Source: Kordiimonas sp. SCSIO 12603 (GTDB taxonomy: Bacteria; Pseudomonadota; Alphaproteobacteria; Sphingomonadales; Kordiimonadaceae). Taken from it: 64,000 bases of DNA. The first letter of the stretch is position 1. Each line of letters opens with the position of its first letter. The notes beneath the pieces were generated by a model, which ran no database searches, had not been told where the DNA came from, and saw only the letters and a list, made by a program, of their open reading frames with translations. The translations under genes and the position numbers were made by a program. This document shows positions 3,842 through 54,390 of this stretch, one piece after another. Location: assembly GCF_024398035.1 (NCBI RefSeq), contig NZ_CP073748.1, forward strand, positions 2,083,520-2,147,519, in the 5' to 3' direction.

Positions 3842-4507
3842 TTATTTGCTTATAGATGTACCACTGATACGAGGGTAATCTTCAGCAGTTACCATTCTTC
3901 TGACATCTAAGACTACAAACTCGTCTGCTGCGGCTTCATAACTCATTAAAATAGTTTCGCCGAAGCTTCTTCGCTCAATCATCTTGGATACAAAACTCTC
4001 CTCAATGCTGCCTTCGTTTAGGGCAATGATGAATGCTGTAATTCTATCGATAGCTTTTTGTGCGTCGTCAGTATTCATCTCTTCTTCAAAAAGAAATTTG
4101 ATTACACCAAGATTGTGAGTTTGGAAAAATAGTGATAATCCGAGGCTATATTGCTTGTCGGATGAAATTTTTTTCTTAGACCCTGAACTGGCTATTTTTT
4201 TAATTTTGTATTTGTATGCTTCACTAAATAAATACTTAAGGCCCTTCTTTAGGAGCTGGTAATGGTCTTTGCCCATCTCTTTCAAGAAAGATTCAAAATA
4301 TGGTTTTGTAATATATAGAACTATAGCGGTGGGTATAAACCACTCGGTTGTTGCAAACATTTCGGCATGTTCACGACGTTTCTTTTCTAAGCTTAACCCT
4401 TTATTGTTTATGATATCTGCAAAATTTGATGCCGTGCTTTGTTCAATAATAGATGAGGTTTCAATTAAAATATGAGGAAGAGTACGTTCGGTGGGCTTCG
4501 GTGTCAT
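3842..4507 (-). CDS. Unrecognised 221-residue protein in AT-rich patch
   Basis: I do not recognise this family. The protein is soluble or peripherally membrane-associated: an alpha-helical N-terminus (IIEQSTASNFADIINNKG), one moderately hydrophobic stretch around residues 53-67 (TEWFIPTAIVLYITKPYF), a lysine-rich centre (YKYKIKKIASSGSKKKISS), then a mixed alpha/beta C-terminus. No cysteine pair, nucleotide-binding or catalytic motif is visible. It stands alone, with AT-rich DNA on both sides, and its composition is lower in GC than its neighbours, which suggests recent acquisition. A defence or toxin role cannot be supported or excluded from sequence. Confidence 0.6.
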   Translation of the reverse strand: MTPKPTERTLPHILIETSSIIEQSTASNFADIINNKGLSLEKKRREHAEMFATTEWFIPTAIVLYITKPYFESFLKEMGKDHYQLLKKGLKYLFSEAYKYKIKKIASSGSKKKISSDKQYSLGLSLFFQTHNLGVIKFLFEEEMNTDDAQKAIDRITAFIIALNEGSIEESFVSKMIERRSFGETILMSYEAAADEFVVLDVRRMVTAEDYPRISGTSISK

Positions 4508-21196: not shown

Positions 21197-21781
21197 CTAA
21201 ACGGCTTTTCTTTGGTTCATTCTGTAACCGATAAAGCCAAGGGCCAGAAGAAGTATCAGGAGAGTTCCTGGTTCTGGGGTAGCAACAATATTTACAGTAG
21301 TTGTGTCGTTGCTTGTTAAATGTTGGTTTGAGCTAACATTAAGTATAGTACCGTTTGGCAGTGCAATTGTACCAACACCTGTTATGTTTGAACGCAGGAT
21401 ACGTACAGATAATTTAATTGTATAGACGCCGACTGTTGGAAACACAGTACCAAGACCTGTTGGGACTGTAAGCTGAAGGCCGTCTGCTACAGCGCCATCG
21501 AAATTACTATTATTGAAATCTCTGAACCGGGCATAACGAACGCCGTTAATATCCCATCTTACGCGGAAAGCTGCATAACTGGCGAGGTCACAGAGTGAAA
21601 AACCATTCACAGTGGTCCCACAAGCATCGAGAAGTAAATTATTCCCGATAGTGGTTGGGGTATAAAGGCCAACATCAGTTGTGAGAATGGGAAATGTAGC
21701 TTGCGATGGTGTGCTGACAAGCAAGGAGCAACCTATTGCCGCTAAACATACTTTAACTGTTTTTATAAAGTTTTTCATCAT
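21197..21781 (-). CDS. PEP-CTERM sorted exported protein A
   Basis: A 194-residue exported protein with a signal peptide (about 1-29). The body is beta-rich and contains LLLDACGTTVNGFSLCDLAS and GVYTIKLSVRI. The C-terminal sorting signal is PEPGTLLILLLALGFIGYR followed by MNQRKAV: PEP motif, hydrophobic helix, basic tail. Such proteins are cleaved and anchored by an exosortase, which is not in this window. It is a tandem paralogue of the next leftward gene (21929-22603): both share a Y-x-P, DACG-x-T, C-x-L, G-x-YTI pattern. The first codon may be 21781 or 21778. Confidence 0.85.
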   Translation of the reverse strand: MMKNFIKTVKVCLAAIGCSLLVSTPSQATFPILTTDVGLYTPTTIGNNLLLDACGTTVNGFSLCDLASYAAFRVRWDINGVRYARFRDFNNSNFDGAVADGLQLTVPTGLGTVFPTVGVYTIKLSVRILRSNITGVGTIALPNGTILNVSSNQHLTSNDTTTVNIVATPEPGTLLILLLALGFIGYRMNQRKAV

Positions 21782-21928: not shown

Positions 21929-22603
21929 TTATGCTAACGTTTTCCGTCTTCGTCTCATGGCTATGAGCAGCGCCGGAATAAGAATAAGGGCAGTCTCTGG
22001 TTCTGGAACTGGTGCGGTAACTGATAAGCTAGCCTGCGCAAAGCTTGTGTTCCGGTATCCGTTAGTTGTGTATCCTGAAGTGGAACACCCAGTACCGGGG
22101 GGGCCATAATGAACGCCGCCAATGTTTACGCCTGGATCACACCATGCTCGAGCAACATTTCCGTCAGGCAGCAGGACATCATTCCAAAACTCTGGAGTGT
22201 GAATTAGAAGGCCGATAGTATAGTTACCAACTTGAGAAATAAGAGTGCCAGCTCCTGTTGAAAATGTGGGTGTAAGACCATGTACAGCATTTGAGCCAGT
22301 ATATTCAGCAAGTGTTGATGTCACGCCATTCTGGCTAATTGACCACGTGAATTCAAAATTCTCCAGTGCTGTGTTGGACAGAGTACAAAAGCCATAAGAA
22401 GGCTGAGAATTTGGTGTGTGAGTGGCTCTGTGAAGAGTGGAGCCGCAGGCATCAACTGTAAGATCTTCACCAAGCGCAATGGGAGAGTAATTGTCTTGTT
22501 GCGCCAAAACATCGAAATAAAAATTGAAAGTTGCTTTGGCTTCTACTGAAATGCCGAGAGCAGAAACCAGCACACCGCAAGCTACTAAGGCTGTTTTTAA
22601 CAT
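21929..22603 (-). CDS. PEP-CTERM sorted exported protein B
   Basis: A 224-residue exported protein with a signal peptide (about 1-24, ending VEAKA). It has the same DACG core as its neighbour (DLTVDACGSTLHRA, then GFCTLSNTALENFEF). An extra insert with CDPGVNIGGVHYGPPGTGC probably forms a disulfide loop. The tail VPEPETALILIPALLIAMRRRRK is a PEP-CTERM signal. It is transcribed away from the large TPR lipoprotein gene. Probably an extracellular or surface matrix protein; no enzymatic motif seen. Confidence 0.85.
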   Translation of the reverse strand: MLKTALVACGVLVSALGISVEAKATFNFYFDVLAQQDNYSPIALGEDLTVDACGSTLHRATHTPNSQPSYGFCTLSNTALENFEFTWSISQNGVTSTLAEYTGSNAVHGLTPTFSTGAGTLISQVGNYTIGLLIHTPEFWNDVLLPDGNVARAWCDPGVNIGGVHYGPPGTGCSTSGYTTNGYRNTSFAQASLSVTAPVPEPETALILIPALLIAMRRRRKTLA

Positions 22604-22938
22604 GATGACCCCATCAACTACTTAAATGACTAACGCGTATTTTAAGTTTAGTTATTCATACATATATTTAATAAATATATAATGAGATAAAATTAAAAAT
22701 GCAAATAATGAACTAGATAACTGTATTTAAATGGAAATTCATTTCATGGGTGGGCTGAGAAGGTTGTATTGATATTTGCCCGGAAACCTTGGTGAAAGCT
22801 CTAAAGGGGCGTAAAATTAGAATAAATACCGCCCATATGTCCGTGTCAGCACTATCTTTGGCTTGAATTATCTGTAAGATATTGTTTTAAATCTTAATTA
22901 AATATTGTTCACCCGAAATAAGTGTTGGTGGGGTTTTG
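22604..22938. other. AT-rich divergent promoter region
   Basis: About 335 bases between the PEP-CTERM B gene and the TPR lipoprotein gene, very AT-rich from 22620 to 22740. It must hold both promoters. I found no sigma-54 type GG-N10-GC element here, although such promoters are known in front of PEP-CTERM genes elsewhere. Confidence 0.4.
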
Positions 22939-25011
22939 ATGAAAAAACTTGGTATATTGGCAACGTGTTCCTTCATGGTTTTAGTCGCCTGTGGGTCTTC
23001 TGAAGAACAGGAACAACAGCAGCAAATAGATTTTTCTGCCTTTGATATCCCCACACTTGAAAAAATTGTTGCGGATGGTGAACCTGTTCAGGCTATTCAG
23101 ATTATCCGCGGTAAAGAACAGCTTAATTTAGCGACGATCGAAGATTTTCTCCTTTCAACAGAGATTTATATCACGCTGTTGAATGGTGTAGCCGCTGAAG
23201 TAGAGCTGAATAAAGCTGTAGAATTGGGGGCAGAAGGGGAACAGGTTGACTTGTTTCGGGCACGCGTTCTTCTGTTGCAAAAGAAGCTGGAAGAAGCGGA
23301 AGAGTTCTTAGCTGAAACAACATTTACCAATGATTTAGCGTATGAAGCGTTATTGCTGCGCGGTGATATTAAAAACGAGCTAAGAGAGTATGAAGCTGCC
23401 AGAGGTTTTTATCAGGCTGCGGTGGATGATAAGCCCGATAATTATTATGGTTATGTTGGATTAGCGCAATTGGAGCTAAATCAGGGCTTTATTGATGATG
23501 CTTTTGCAAATGCCAGCAGAGCGAATGAGCTTCAACCCGATGATCCGATCGTTCTTTATCTTCTCGGGTCCACAAGCCGCTATCTCTTAAAACCAGATGA
23601 AGCAATTGCATATCTTAAGCGCGCACTAGAGCTTAATGGACAACACTATCTGGCGCTTCTTGAACTCGCGGCCATCTATATCGAAAAGAATGAATTTGAA
23701 GAAGCTCGTAAGCAGCTGGATGAAGTTTATGCTCTTTCCCCAGAAGATCGGATGGCGCGTTATTATTCTGCGCTTCTGTTAGCTTCAGAAGGAAAGAATG
23801 AAGAAGCCGAAGAGCTTATGTTGCGCCTTGGGGATTTGCCAAAAATCTACCCTCCGGCAGCTCGGGTATATGGGCATATAGCCTACCGCCTTGGCAAATA
23901 TAGTACGGCGACGCCTTATTTAGAGCAGTTCCTGCGACTTTTACCAGAAGATAGACCTACCCGTCTTGCGCTGGCAGAATCCTATACGCGCAGAGGTAAG
24001 GCGAAAGAGGCACTTCGTCTGCTAAAAGTACTACTTGATGCAAATGAGGCTGACCTGGAGGCTAACTTGCAAGCCGCGGCCGCCGCTGGGATTATGGGGG
24101 ACCGTCAGAAGGTTGGTGAATATGTAACCCGTGCTCAAAATCTCGCAAAAAATGGCAGCGTTGATGATCAGGAATTAATCCGCTCGCTTGGGCGTCGTTT
24201 GGCTATCAATAACTTCCAAAAAGGTAACGATAAGGTTGCTATTGATCAATTGGAAGCAATGGCAGCTGAGGATGATAAGGACCTGTTAACACTAACATTG
24301 ATGGCCAATCTCCAGATGGAGACGGGTGATCTGGAAAGTGCGGAGAAAACAACCAGCAGGCTATTAGCTGTTGCTCCGGATAGTCCTGTAGGGGCCAACC
24401 TTATGGGATCTATCAGATATCGCCAGCGCAAAGTTGATGAAGCCCTTGAGCTTTACAACAAGGCAATTGAACAGAATTCCGAGTATGTTTCAGCGCTTAA
24501 AAACCGAGCTCTTGTTTATCTGGTTCAGGAAAAATTCCAGGAAGCGCGAGAAGATTTGGCAAAGGTAGTTGCCGCTAATCCAAGAGATGCACAGGCGAGA
24601 GGTATGTTTGGTAGAGCGCTCCTTGAAACCGGCGATGCTAAAGAGTCTCTGGGGCATTTTCAGGCTGCTGAGGAAGTTTTTCCGAGATCCGCTATTTTAC
24701 ATGCAGATCATTCAGAGGCCCTTGCAAAACTCGGTTATTATTCTACGGCGATCAAACGTGCTGAGAGAGCTATTTCTTATTCAGGCGGGCACGAAAAGCT
24801 AAATGAATATTTAAATAATCTGATCGCTGAGTGGACCGAAATTGATAAGAAACAACGCGAAGAAGAGGCTAAAGCCAGAGAAGAACGTAAGGCTAAACGT
24901 GCAGAACAGCGCAAAGAGCAGCAAGAGCGTTTAAAAGAGGGGCAGAAAGAAGAGGAAACATCAGATGAAGGTGATGTTGAGCCACCTGAAGATGAACCGC
25001 CCCTTCACTAA
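22939..25011 (+). CDS. Large TPR-repeat lipoprotein, PrsT-like
   Basis: A 690-residue lipoprotein: signal peptide with lipobox LVAC (Cys near 18), a Glu/Gln-rich spacer, then about 14-16 tetratricopeptide repeats across residues 60-630. Examples are EAARGFYQAAVDDKPDNYYG and DEAIAYLKRALELNGQHYLA. It ends with a highly charged coiled tail (about 640-690, Lys/Glu/Arg-rich, ending EPPEDEPPLH). It resembles the TPR protein PrsT of PEP-CTERM / exopolysaccharide systems, and two PEP-CTERM genes lie next door, but it is shorter than typical PrsT. I chose the ATG at 22939 after GGTGGGG. Likely a scaffold for export or sorting at the outer membrane, by inference. Confidence 0.75.
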   Translation: MKKLGILATCSFMVLVACGSSEEQEQQQQIDFSAFDIPTLEKIVADGEPVQAIQIIRGKEQLNLATIEDFLLSTEIYITLLNGVAAEVELNKAVELGAEGEQVDLFRARVLLLQKKLEEAEEFLAETTFTNDLAYEALLLRGDIKNELREYEAARGFYQAAVDDKPDNYYGYVGLAQLELNQGFIDDAFANASRANELQPDDPIVLYLLGSTSRYLLKPDEAIAYLKRALELNGQHYLALLELAAIYIEKNEFEEARKQLDEVYALSPEDRMARYYSALLLASEGKNEEAEELMLRLGDLPKIYPPAARVYGHIAYRLGKYSTATPYLEQFLRLLPEDRPTRLALAESYTRRGKAKEALRLLKVLLDANEADLEANLQAAAAAGIMGDRQKVGEYVTRAQNLAKNGSVDDQELIRSLGRRLAINNFQKGNDKVAIDQLEAMAAEDDKDLLTLTLMANLQMETGDLESAEKTTSRLLAVAPDSPVGANLMGSIRYRQRKVDEALELYNKAIEQNSEYVSALKNRALVYLVQEKFQEAREDLAKVVAANPRDAQARGMFGRALLETGDAKESLGHFQAAEEVFPRSAILHADHSEALAKLGYYSTAIKRAERAISYSGGHEKLNEYLNNLIAEWTEIDKKQREEEAKAREERKAKRAEQRKEQQERLKEGQKEEETSDEGDVEPPEDEPPLH

Positions 25012-52347: not shown

Positions 52348-53490
52348 TTGACTATTTCCTGCCAGCGCCATCTTTTCGATATTCCTTCCGATATTTGTTA
52401 TCTTAACGCATCTTACATGACGCCGCTCACTCTTAAGCAGGCGGAAGTGGGCGAGGCTGCCCTCAAACGATGCATGCAGCCCTGGACCGTGAGCCCTCAG
52501 GACTTTTTCGATACTGTCCAGCCGGTGAAAGACCTTTCAGCCCGAATGTTTGGCGTTGATCCTGAAGATATGGCTGTTATTCCTTCGGTGAGTTACGGCA
52601 TCGCAAGCGCCGCGAAAAACATTAAACTGGAAGCCGGACAGAAGATTATACTTCTCGAACATCAGTTTCCCTCAAATGTCTATGAATGGCGTGATTTAGC
52701 TGAAGCACAGGAAGCTTCAATTATCACTGTTCCAACACCAGAAAACCATGACTGGACTTCCGCAATCCTTGAGGTGCTTGCTGAAGAAGGAGAGGATGCT
52801 GGTTTGTTGGCGCTCGCGAATGTGCACTGGTCATCTGGTGCTCTTTTTGACCTGAAAGCTATCTCTGTTGAGTGCAGAAAAAATGGTGTTTCGCTTGTGT
52901 TGGACCTTACCCAATCAGCGGGAGCAGTCCCAATTAATTTGGCGGAAATTGATCCTGATTTCGCGGTGATTGGTAGCTATAAATGGATGATGGGCCCATA
53001 TAGCATGGGGGTAATGTATGTACCGCCACGTAACCAGCAAGGCAGGCCGCTTGAGCAGAACTGGATCGCCCGTAAGGATAGTGAAAATTTCAGCCAACTT
53101 GTTGATTATAAAGATGGATATCAACCGGGTGCCGCGCGGTTTGATATGGGGGAAAAATCCAACTTTATTCTAAGCCCGGTTTATGCAGAGGGTATCCGGC
53201 AGCTTCTTGAGTGGGGTGTGGAAAATATCGCAACTTCAATTGATGCGCTGAATATGAAGCTCGCTGCTATTTGTGTGGCTGCCGGATTTGAACCAATTGA
53301 AACAGCATACCGATCACCAAATATTTTGGGAGTTCACGTGGGAAAACGTGCAGATGAAGTGCTTGGTAAACTTAAAGAAAACAATATTTCGGCTGGTATC
53401 CGCGGGGACATGTTGCGCCTTGCTCCACACCTATGGGTGAATGAAAATGATCTCGATCGTTTTGAAAGTGTTTTCAAAAGCTTGAAATAG
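52348..53490 (+). CDS. Class V aminotransferase family protein (cysteine-desulfurase / kynureninase-like fold)
   Basis: A 380-residue PLP enzyme. The Schiff-base lysine is Lys 212 in IGSYKWMMGPYSMG, the pyridine-binding Asp is 186 in LVLDLTQSAGA with Gln 189, and SYGIASAAKN binds the phosphate. The C-terminal domain ends LRLAPHLWVNENDLDRFESV. It starts with TTG at 52348, eight bases after GGAG; the next Met is inside the conserved N-terminal strand (YLNASYM), so the TTG start is preferred. The reaction is not determined; a desulfurase catalytic Cys loop is not evident. Confidence 0.82.
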   Translation: MTISCQRHLFDIPSDICYLNASYMTPLTLKQAEVGEAALKRCMQPWTVSPQDFFDTVQPVKDLSARMFGVDPEDMAVIPSVSYGIASAAKNIKLEAGQKIILLEHQFPSNVYEWRDLAEAQEASIITVPTPENHDWTSAILEVLAEEGEDAGLLALANVHWSSGALFDLKAISVECRKNGVSLVLDLTQSAGAVPINLAEIDPDFAVIGSYKWMMGPYSMGVMYVPPRNQQGRPLEQNWIARKDSENFSQLVDYKDGYQPGAARFDMGEKSNFILSPVYAEGIRQLLEWGVENIATSIDALNMKLAAICVAAGFEPIETAYRSPNILGVHVGKRADEVLGKLKENNISAGIRGDMLRLAPHLWVNENDLDRFESVFKSLK

Positions 53491-53492
53491 CC

Positions 53493-53561
53493 TGTTTCGA
53501 TCTGAAGCGCTGTTTCAAAATGGTACATATTTCGATTAAAATATCTGTAGTTTTTTGAAAC
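53493..53561. promoter_or_regulatory. TGTTTC-type repeats, possible activator sites
   Basis: TGTTTC occurs at 53493-53498 and 53511-53516 (18 bp apart), and its partial reverse complement GAAAC at 53557-53561. They lie about 134, 116 and 68 bp before the predicted RNA start at 53627, the usual range for enhancer sites bound by sigma-54 activators. Identity of the activator is unknown. Confidence 0.35.
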
Positions 53562-53600
53562 GTATCTAATTAAGATGTTGATATATATGGTTTTTATTTT

Positions 53601-53616
53601 TGGCACGCTTAATGCT
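53601..53616 (+). promoter_or_regulatory. Sigma-54 promoter of a small RNA
   Basis: TGGCACG, four bases, ATGCT: GG at 53602-53603 and GC at 53614-53615 with exactly ten bases between, as sigma-54 requires. The -24 half TGGCACG is a full consensus match, and the -12 half ATGCT differs from TTGCT by one base. With C53615 at -12, transcription should begin at about 53627, one base before the first hairpin. Confidence 0.75.
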
Positions 53617-53626
53617 GTTATATAAG

Positions 53627-53744
53627 TGTCTTGGAAATCTTTGCCTGAGGTGACAAGACGTGATTTGAAGAGCCTGCTTCCATTTTGCCTGAGTGGAGCA
53701 GGCTCGACTTATCAGCGGGCAGGAGCAATCCTGTCCGTTTTTTT
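53627..53744 (+). ncRNA. Putative sigma-54-dependent small RNA with twin identical loops
   Basis: A predicted RNA of about 118 nt. Hairpin 1 pairs GTCTTG (53628-53633) with CAAGAC (53654-53659) around a 20-nt loop. Hairpin 2 pairs GAGCCTGCT (53670-53678) with AGCAGGCTC (53697-53705), plus CCA/TGG pairs, around an 11-nt loop. Both loops contain the same ten bases, TTTGCCTGAG (53640-53649 and 53684-53693). Hairpin 3 is an intrinsic terminator: CGGGCAGGA, GCAA loop, TCCTGTCCG (53716-53737), then seven T (53738-53744). No ORF or Shine-Dalgarno lies within. The repeated exposed loop suggests a base-pairing seed or a protein-binding site. The downstream acyltransferase starts 61 bases after the T tract and is probably not its output. 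I know of no named family with this loop. Confidence 0.7.
53716..53744 (+). terminator. GNRA-capped intrinsic terminator of the small RNA
   Basis: Nine pairs (one G-U) closed by a GCAA tetraloop and followed by seven T residues. It lies too far (226 bases) from the aminotransferase stop to be a simple end of that gene, and it matches the end of the predicted small RNA. Confidence 0.88.
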
Positions 53745-53805
53745 ATTGCCAAATCCCTGTGCAGTAGAATAGCTTCCCTCGCTCGGGGGAAGTGAAGGAA
53801 GTTCC

Positions 53806-54390
53806 GTGAAAAGAAAACTAATCTACGACAACGGTTTTTTCCGTGGTCTTTTGCATGTGATTGCGAAAGCGTTTCTTAGGATGACTGGATGGACTGTAAT
53901 TGGGGAAGCACCAAACGATAAAAAATATGTGGTGATTGCAGGGCCTCACACCAGTAACTGGGATTTCCCTCTTTTTATTGCTGTTGCAGGGTATTTAAAG
54001 CTCAGGCCTTCTTTCCTTGGAAAAGATAGTTTGTTTAAGGGCCTTCATGGGAGGTTTTTCTACTATATGGGCGGTATCCCTGTTTACCGGGAAGGACCGG
54101 AAGCCGCTGATATTGTTGATCAGGCGATAAGAGCTTTTGCTGATAATGATGAACTGATTTTAGGTATTGCCCCGGAAGGTACCAGGTCAAAGGTAGAAAA
54201 GTTAAAATCAGGCTTTTACCGGATCGCAGAAGGGGCGGGGGTGCCTATTCATATGGCCTATCTGGATAGTGAAAAGAAAGAAATTGGTTTTGGTCCGCGG
54301 TATGTACCTTCCGGGGATATGGCGAAGGATATGGAAGAAATCTACCAGTTTTACAAGAGCAAACCCGGTGTAAAGCCTCGGGGTGATTAA
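53806..54390 (+). CDS. PlsC-like 1-acylglycerol-3-phosphate acyltransferase family protein
   Basis: A 194-residue acyltransferase. The catalytic H-x4-D is HTSNWD (His 48, Asp 53). The substrate motif is GGIPVYREG, and the third motif is IAPEGTRSK. It is shorter than PlsC proper and lacks an N-terminal membrane helix, though FFRGLLHVIAKAFLRM is amphipathic. It starts at GTG 53806 after AAGGAAG. Likely transfers an acyl chain to a lysophospholipid or similar acceptor at the membrane surface; the acceptor is uncertain. Confidence 0.85.
   Translation: MKRKLIYDNGFFRGLLHVIAKAFLRMTGWTVIGEAPNDKKYVVIAGPHTSNWDFPLFIAVAGYLKLRPSFLGKDSLFKGLHGRFFYYMGGIPVYREGPEAADIVDQAIRAFADNDELILGIAPEGTRSKVEKLKSGFYRIAEGAGVPIHMAYLDSEKKEIGFGPRYVPSGDMAKDMEEIYQFYKSKPGVKPRGD

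Follow-up and report, generated by a model that had tools for sequence, protein, structure and literature searches.

Three groups of described small RNAs come closest to the one reported here. LuxO binding sites are present at the Qrr genes, as set out in a section of one report (PMC10328515), and the LuxO box of Vibrio is given as TTGCAW3TGCAA in a passage of another (PMC11443567). GlmY of the Enterobacteriaceae has a sigma-54 promoter with upstream QseF/GlrR sites, according to an excerpt of a third (PMC6075780). In the Rhizobiales RNAs SmelA075 and SmelA099, three or four hairpins each carry the loop CCUCCUCCC on variable stems, and neither "rpon" nor "sigma 54" occurs in the main text of the article concerned (PMC3927594).

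Here we describe a locus, named sRNA1, that appears from its sequence to encode a conserved small RNA, predicted to be sigma-54-driven and showing the same eight-letter loop twice. It lies in a window of 64,000 nucleotides of Kordiimonas sp. SCSIO 12603, whose genome (G000) is a single contig of 3.85 Mb. Pfam assigns the two flanking genes to a class-V aminotransferase (52348-53490) and an acyltransferase (53806-54390). sRNA1 is akin to the LuxO-Qrr and QseF-GlmY systems in its wiring and to the Rhizobiales RNAs in its design, and by the tests run it belongs to none of the three groups. With the Qrr system it shares a sigma-54 promoter with enhancer palindromes, an NtrC-type response regulator, and more than one small RNA under that regulator; with GlmY, response-regulator sites lying upstream of a sigma-54 promoter. 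It differs from Qrr in its loop word and duplicated-loop design, and neither the Qrr nor the GlmY/GlmZ families of Rfam match it. In the GlmY system, IHF is involved, the boxes read TGTC-N10-GACA, and GlmY itself is a decoy for RapZ; Qrr RNAs pair with quorum regulators in an Hfq-dependent manner. The best reading is that the wiring is Qrr- and GlmY-like without membership of either family. The Qrr-like architecture seen in the initial annotation survives. The anti-Shine-Dalgarno RNAs of the SmelA075/SmelA099 type, known as "cuckoo" RNA, likewise display one loop word per hairpin on variable stems, but the word here is UUGCCUGA, not CCUCCUCCC, and there are two hairpins. Our literature search, which covered few subscription journals, returned no description of sRNA1 or of any Kordiimonas small RNA.

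Table 1. Coordinates of the sRNA1 locus and of related features elsewhere (window positions unless a genome or locus is named)
Feature	Position	Strand	Basis or remark
Upstream activating palindrome, weak copy, TGTTTCGATCTGAAGCG	53493..53509	.	11.6 bits
Upstream activating palindrome, strong copy, TGTTTCAAAATGGTACA	53511..53527	.	21.7 bits
IHF-like site, TAAGATGTTGATA	53571..53583	+	fits the consensus YAANNNNTTGATW
Sigma-54 -24/-12 promoter, TGGCACGCTTAATGCT	53601..53616	+	read directly
sRNA1 transcript, predicted start to end of T-run	53627..53744	+	fold z -7.2; relatives; covariation
Hairpin 1, loop motif TTTGCCTGAG at 53640-53649	53628..53659	+	predicted fold, covariation
Hairpin 2, loop motif TTTGCCTGAG at 53684-53693	53670..53705	+	predicted fold, covariation
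Intrinsic terminator, 10-pair stem, GCAA loop, T7	53715..53744	+	predicted; two-sided changes in all 10 aligned terminator pairs
Likely activator gene	G000:C1:1123566-1125008
sRNA2 in G000	G000:C1:3071451-3071495		L360 about 3930-4076; others L255, L256, L258, L366, L367
ParA-like/HerA-like sites	L494 4916 and 13456; L495 6225 and 14471		domains tested in G012 only

The promoter reported in the initial annotation is exact in the window, with GG at 53602-53603 and GC at 53614-53615 forming GG-N10-GC, and places the predicted transcription start at about 53627. The same element stands at the right distance in 29 of the 30 scanned relatives, all but G009, whose GG is changed; G016, whose promoter is identical to that of the window, brings the total to 30 of 31. 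TGGCAY is found in 28 of the 29 promoters and the final TGC in all 29. A strict IHF-like form, YAANNNNTTGWWW (YAANNNNTTG followed by three A/T), is present within 45 nt 5' of the GG in 22 of the 29 promoters, as compared with a mean of 0.5 and a maximum of 3 in shuffled sequences, and starts 31-33 nt before the GG with one further start at 42; a looser form is found in 29/29 (3.3 expected).

Tandem 17-bp palindromes, TGTYYCAWWWTGRRACA, lie 5' of the IHF-like site, one to three per promoter. A matrix built from the 29 promoters, that of the window included, detects 74 sites of at least 9 bits in them and 0-2 in each of 20 shuffles; since it was trained on the same stretches, the weight rests on the independent palindrome sites described below. 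The whole window contains three sites of at least 10 bits, two of them upstream of sRNA1. The palindrome TYYCAW3TGRRA has the CA-W3-TG core and spacing of the LuxO box, a likeness that may reflect the half-site geometry of Fis-type HTH domains rather than kinship; in the form TGTY-N9-RACA it departs from the TGTC-N10-GACA of the GlmY system. NifA, NtrC and GlrR boxes differ from it in spacing or letters. As a sigma-70 promoter, there is a single weak candidate at 53514-53542 (0.8 expected). The predicted sigma-54 control of sRNA1 is near certain from the sequence: to the promoter of the initial annotation are now added its conservation, the IHF-like site, the tandem enhancer palindromes and a co-occurring activator gene.

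The predicted RNA begins one base before hairpin 1, as originally noted, and folds with -58.8 kcal/mol, a value equalled by none of 200 shuffles. Its terminator (predicted stem 53715-53738, T-run 53738-53744) has the GCAA loop and T7 already described; the nine pairs counted before become 10 when the outer G-U is included. The 10-nt loop attributed to both hairpins needs a similar adjustment, as the word does occur twice with its outer letters weakly paired (U-A, U-G), and the fold leaves UGCCU or GCCU at the hairpin tips. The closing register of the stems relative to the word varies by one among species, with the word constant.

We aligned 26 sequences with MAFFT without structural information and drew the structure by hand. 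Two-sided changes are observed in 27 of the 31 pairs, and all five covariation measures exceed those of all 500 shuffles (covariation 0.489 vs 0.261). Sliding the pairing partners lowers these measures, a control that is biased in favour of the structure because it was drawn from the same sequences. TTGCCTGA does not vary in loop 1 and hardly varies in loop 2, at a mean column identity of 49%; this constancy is partly by construction, most of the 26 sequences having been found through the loop pattern. In all six copies found by synteny or by the covariance model (G008, G010, G023, G040, G054 and G061), both loops contain GCCTGA, and the first loop letters are changed in five of these. Selection on the loop rather than on the stems, as the first reading of the sequence had proposed, is supported; the stems diverge with compensation around a preserved word. 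The linker between the hairpins contains a recurrent GAGTA or GAGTT in several relatives (L013, L016, L023, L025 and L052), with three copies in G008 and none in the RNA of the window. ANTAR dual hairpins were considered and set aside, the loop letters being unlike their consensus. No Rfam family matches at its gathering score in the window, and a scan of 53500-53800 returned four unrelated chance matches with E of 2.4-5.9.

A single copy of sRNA1 was found by blastn in G000 and an identical one in G016. The two-loop pattern matches 44 of the 296 genomes of the order, many of them by chance inside genes, and the reversed pattern matches two. Flank reading and a covariance model retain 31 genomes from four families as carriers of the RNA: 19/19 members of the genus, 7/10 other members of the family, and five in three further families, namely G042 in f2 (1/8 tested with the model), G034 and G040 in f7 (2/2), and G054 and G061 in f6 (2/7). 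Named records with model matches include K. laminariae, K. aquimaris, Pseudokordiimonas caeni and Eilatimonas milleporae. Among the loci inspected, no convincing sRNA1 was seen in the family members G022, G024 and G025 or in the tested genomes of f3 (1), f4 (4) and f8 (10); G056 (f2), which has the promoter and terminator but one loop, was left out of the count. Independently of the loops, 16 genus members were found through the acyltransferase neighbour, and sRNA1 lies beside that gene in 16/16, with the exact pattern in 14 and a longer linker or one changed letter in two.

The covariance model, run on 40 genomes, gave 37 matches in 24 genomes, of which 15 loci were inspected; weak matches outside these include G039:C6 (E 2e-4). 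A class-wide search of 386 genomes, with stricter filters that can miss weak relatives and with the family represented by G000 alone, matched 20 at E <=0.01, and TGCCTGA is absent from all 22 match loci outside G000. No match was detected in phage records. The class-wide matches outside G000 are terminator-like and lack the loop word, as would be expected if the locus were no more than chance hairpins or a stray terminator 3' of the aminotransferase gene; that explanation is, however, already refuted by the promoter, loops, covarying stems and terminator kept in 31 genomes, and we give it practically no weight.

A palindrome search of eight genomes, allowing one mismatch, gave 1-5 sites per genome, while the reversed control gave two matches per strand in G000 (vs three) and none in the other genomes. 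Fourteen further places were read: three are at a second small RNA, sRNA2, three at PEP-CTERM genes and one at the gene of an NtrC-type regulator. One more precedes a small ORF at modA in G034, and another a short ORF of that genome with a promoter and an IHF-like site; for five (L261, L265, L266, L267 and L268, of which two are from G000) neither a promoter nor a related gene is evident.

The regulator gene with this palindrome lies in G008 and encodes receiver, AAA+ and Fis domains. An orthologue is present in 7/7 sRNA1-positive and 0/4 sRNA1-negative genomes, a pattern that partly reflects ancestry in a set of 11 chosen by sRNA1 status; the two-loop pattern is absent from the negatives, in which the model either finds nothing or matches weakly (<=28.5 bits, part of these matches inspected), and the best regulator matches there are paralogues (38-41%). 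The orthologues, about 54-68% identical to the G000 copy, keep D57, GAFTGA or GSFTGA, and the HTH. In five of the seven genomes, a palindrome of at least 12 bits stands approximately 30-70 nt 5' of the start, none such being found before the gene in G013 or G020; this position suggests that the gene may be autoregulated. The regulator is below all NCBIfam cut-offs shown (in G000, NtrC 428 of 558.6 and LuxO 401 of 800 bits). Across five orthologues the LuxO model gives 354-409 bits for a cut-off of 800, too low for LuxO itself, and the protein resembles LuxO no more closely than it does NtrC or AtoC. From the co-occurrence and the palindrome at its own gene, we infer that this regulator is likely the activator of sRNA1, with the palindromes as its predicted binding sites.

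Three PEP-CTERM genes stand 3' of a palindrome (L259 and L262 in G020, L257 in G034), one of them with a clear sigma-54 promoter, which raises the question of whether the activator could instead be PrsR (TIGR02915), the PEP-CTERM response regulator. PrsR is indeed present in G034, G026, G040, G061 and G054. Yet it is absent at E <=1e-120 from G042 and from all 19 members of the genus, all of which carry sRNA1, whereas G038 has PrsR but yielded no sRNA1; PrsR is thereby ruled out for the genus, and overall we consider it very improbable. G020 also lacks PrsR at the threshold used, and another activator may serve its PEP-CTERM genes. In the window, a TPR protein (22936-25011, +) resembles PrsT, which belongs to the exosortase system (218 bits for a cut-off of 312), in a genus that lacks PrsR at that threshold.

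The palindrome led to sRNA2 in G012, G005 and G013, 3' of a modA-like gene (HMM-tested in G012), and the loop pattern GCTGCCAC adds G000, G016, G001 and G003. This pattern matches 35/147 genomes, and as the reversed control also matches many, only sRNA2-like loci were kept. This predicted second sigma-54 sRNA family resembles sRNA1 in layout, with palindromes, a -24 box, two hairpins each displaying GCUGCCAC, and a long terminator whose loop is large and C-rich (TTGCCCCACCTCAATCCGC in three species). Six of the seven loci were read and aligned: two-sided changes occur in 21 of 34 predicted pairs, and the -12 TTGC is replaced by TTGAGT or TTGAAA in two. Rfam returned nothing for the sRNA2 loci. 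The predicted target word for the sRNA2 loops would be GTGGCAGC. The linker of the G013 copy also contains TTTGCCTGAG.

Candidate targets were sought by scanning mRNA start regions for the loop complement, TCAGGCAA. Such eight-letter matches are common: within 14 nt of any ATG there are 71 in G000, 26 in G012, 48 in G001 and 43 in G011. Nearly all of these were retrieved, and 19 of 133 sites (G000, G012 and G001; one counted twice) and 2 of 37 G011 loci passed a crude start filter. In G000, TCAGGCAA stops 5 nt short of the ATG of a tadG-like Tad/vWA gene, hereafter tadG. Two TadE genes come after it, and the stretch also includes an RcpC/CpaB gene. The orthologue in G011 (59% identical) has two tandem sites before its ATG, CTCAGGCAAAATTCAGGCAACCAGACC. 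In G012, CTTCAGGCAAACACAC precedes the ATG of a second gene of tadG type that diverges from the tadG orthologue; that orthologue has two six-letter partial sites only. The tadG evidence comes from these three species; in the fourth, G001, none of the 48 listed sites is at a tadG relative.

Predicted loop-leader duplexes reach -13.5 kcal/mol in G000, -15.8 in G011 and -13.6 at the second tadG-like gene of G012, values equalled by 0.2%, none and 0.25% of 2000 shuffles, respectively; for the G012 tadG orthologue, the duplex is -10.7 kcal/mol and 5% of shuffles are as good. Among 55 ORF starts of the window (at least 150 aa), a PEP-CTERM leader gives -15.3 and the next -12.6, so that -13.5 is high but not unique. 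The word has a probability of 0.00035-0.00095 of arising by chance within the final 25 nt of leaders of this kind, and recurrence of one gene in two species among few credible starts is unlikely by chance, on an estimate made after seeing the data. Pairing of the sRNA1 loop at the tadG start is plausible but thin. The nitrogen, motility or quorum link suggested at the outset was a guess, for which motA offers a candidate in a single genome, and the evidence points rather to surface structures (Tad pilus, PEP-CTERM).

Other mRNAs could be the main targets and tadG incidental. In G000, TCAGGCAA also stands before motA and before a cytidylyltransferase gene, and in both G012 and G001 before a ParA-like and a HerA-like ATPase gene; the PEP-CTERM leader of the window contains CTCAGGCG and forms the best loop duplex among the window starts, and G001 has no tadG site. 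We regard this as rather unlikely, although a serious contender: motA and the cytidylyltransferase gene were seen in one genome only, and among the loci fetched tadG alone recurs in G000 and G011. The ParA-like and HerA-like genes lie approximately 8 kb apart in two species of the genus, each with TCAGGCAA just before its start. The leader of the PEP-CTERM protein gene (21197-21781, -; Pfam and TIGR02595 matches) carries CTCAGGCGAAA and TCGCCTGA, which resemble the sRNA1 loop and its complement and could form a hairpin; its neighbour (21929-22603, -) has a PEP-like tail and no NCBIfam match at E 1e-6. The repeated loop might also be a recognition element for an RNA-binding protein, titrated as in CsrA/RsmY logic, with the tadG matches due to chance. 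One conserved word on two variable-stem hairpins is typical of protein-titrating RNAs as well, and a closing register that varies by one would fit. The loop lacks GGA, however, which is the CsrA motif, and its complement is found where tadG orthologues begin in two species, in duplicate in one of them; such sites favour base pairing, and a protein sponge seems to us distinctly unlikely.

We therefore favour, with confidence a little above even, an activator-sRNA circuit composed of a sigma-54-dependent sRNA1, a dedicated NtrC-type activator, and loop pairing at the ribosome-binding regions of target mRNAs. Conservation supports the promoter, the IHF-like site, the palindromes, the two-loop RNA and the terminator as its predicted parts. 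Upon some signal, the response regulator would be phosphorylated, bind the tandem TGTYYCAWWWTGRRACA palindromes and reach the promoter across an IHF-bent loop, where sigma-54 polymerase would transcribe sRNA1 as a trans-acting RNA. Each hairpin would offer UUGCCUGA for pairing with UCAGGCAA, blocking translation, with tadG of the Tad/Flp pilus as the best-supported target and repression of Tad pili as the outcome; with its two equal loops, the RNA could bind a single mRNA at a pair of sites, as at tadG of G011, or hold two mRNAs simultaneously. This activator apparently would also drive sRNA2 and some PEP-CTERM genes, so that the circuit probably switches a surface or attachment state. More tentatively, and with somewhat less than even confidence, it may be a Qrr-like switch built independently of Vibrio, in which one orphan bEBP controls two sibling double-loop RNAs and PEP-CTERM genes, and a single signal exchanges Tad pili for a different surface coat.

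The locus provides a named promoter, an activator gene, a sibling RNA and a candidate target, which makes a whole sigma-54 riboregulatory circuit testable in a little-studied alphaproteobacterial lineage, and its duplicated loop is a clean system in which to ask why small RNAs repeat one seed. If the circuit is as proposed, the repetition of the word would serve to occupy a single leader twice or to let each RNA reach two targets, and a design of one activator with multiple small RNAs, like that of LuxO-Qrr, would have evolved more than once.
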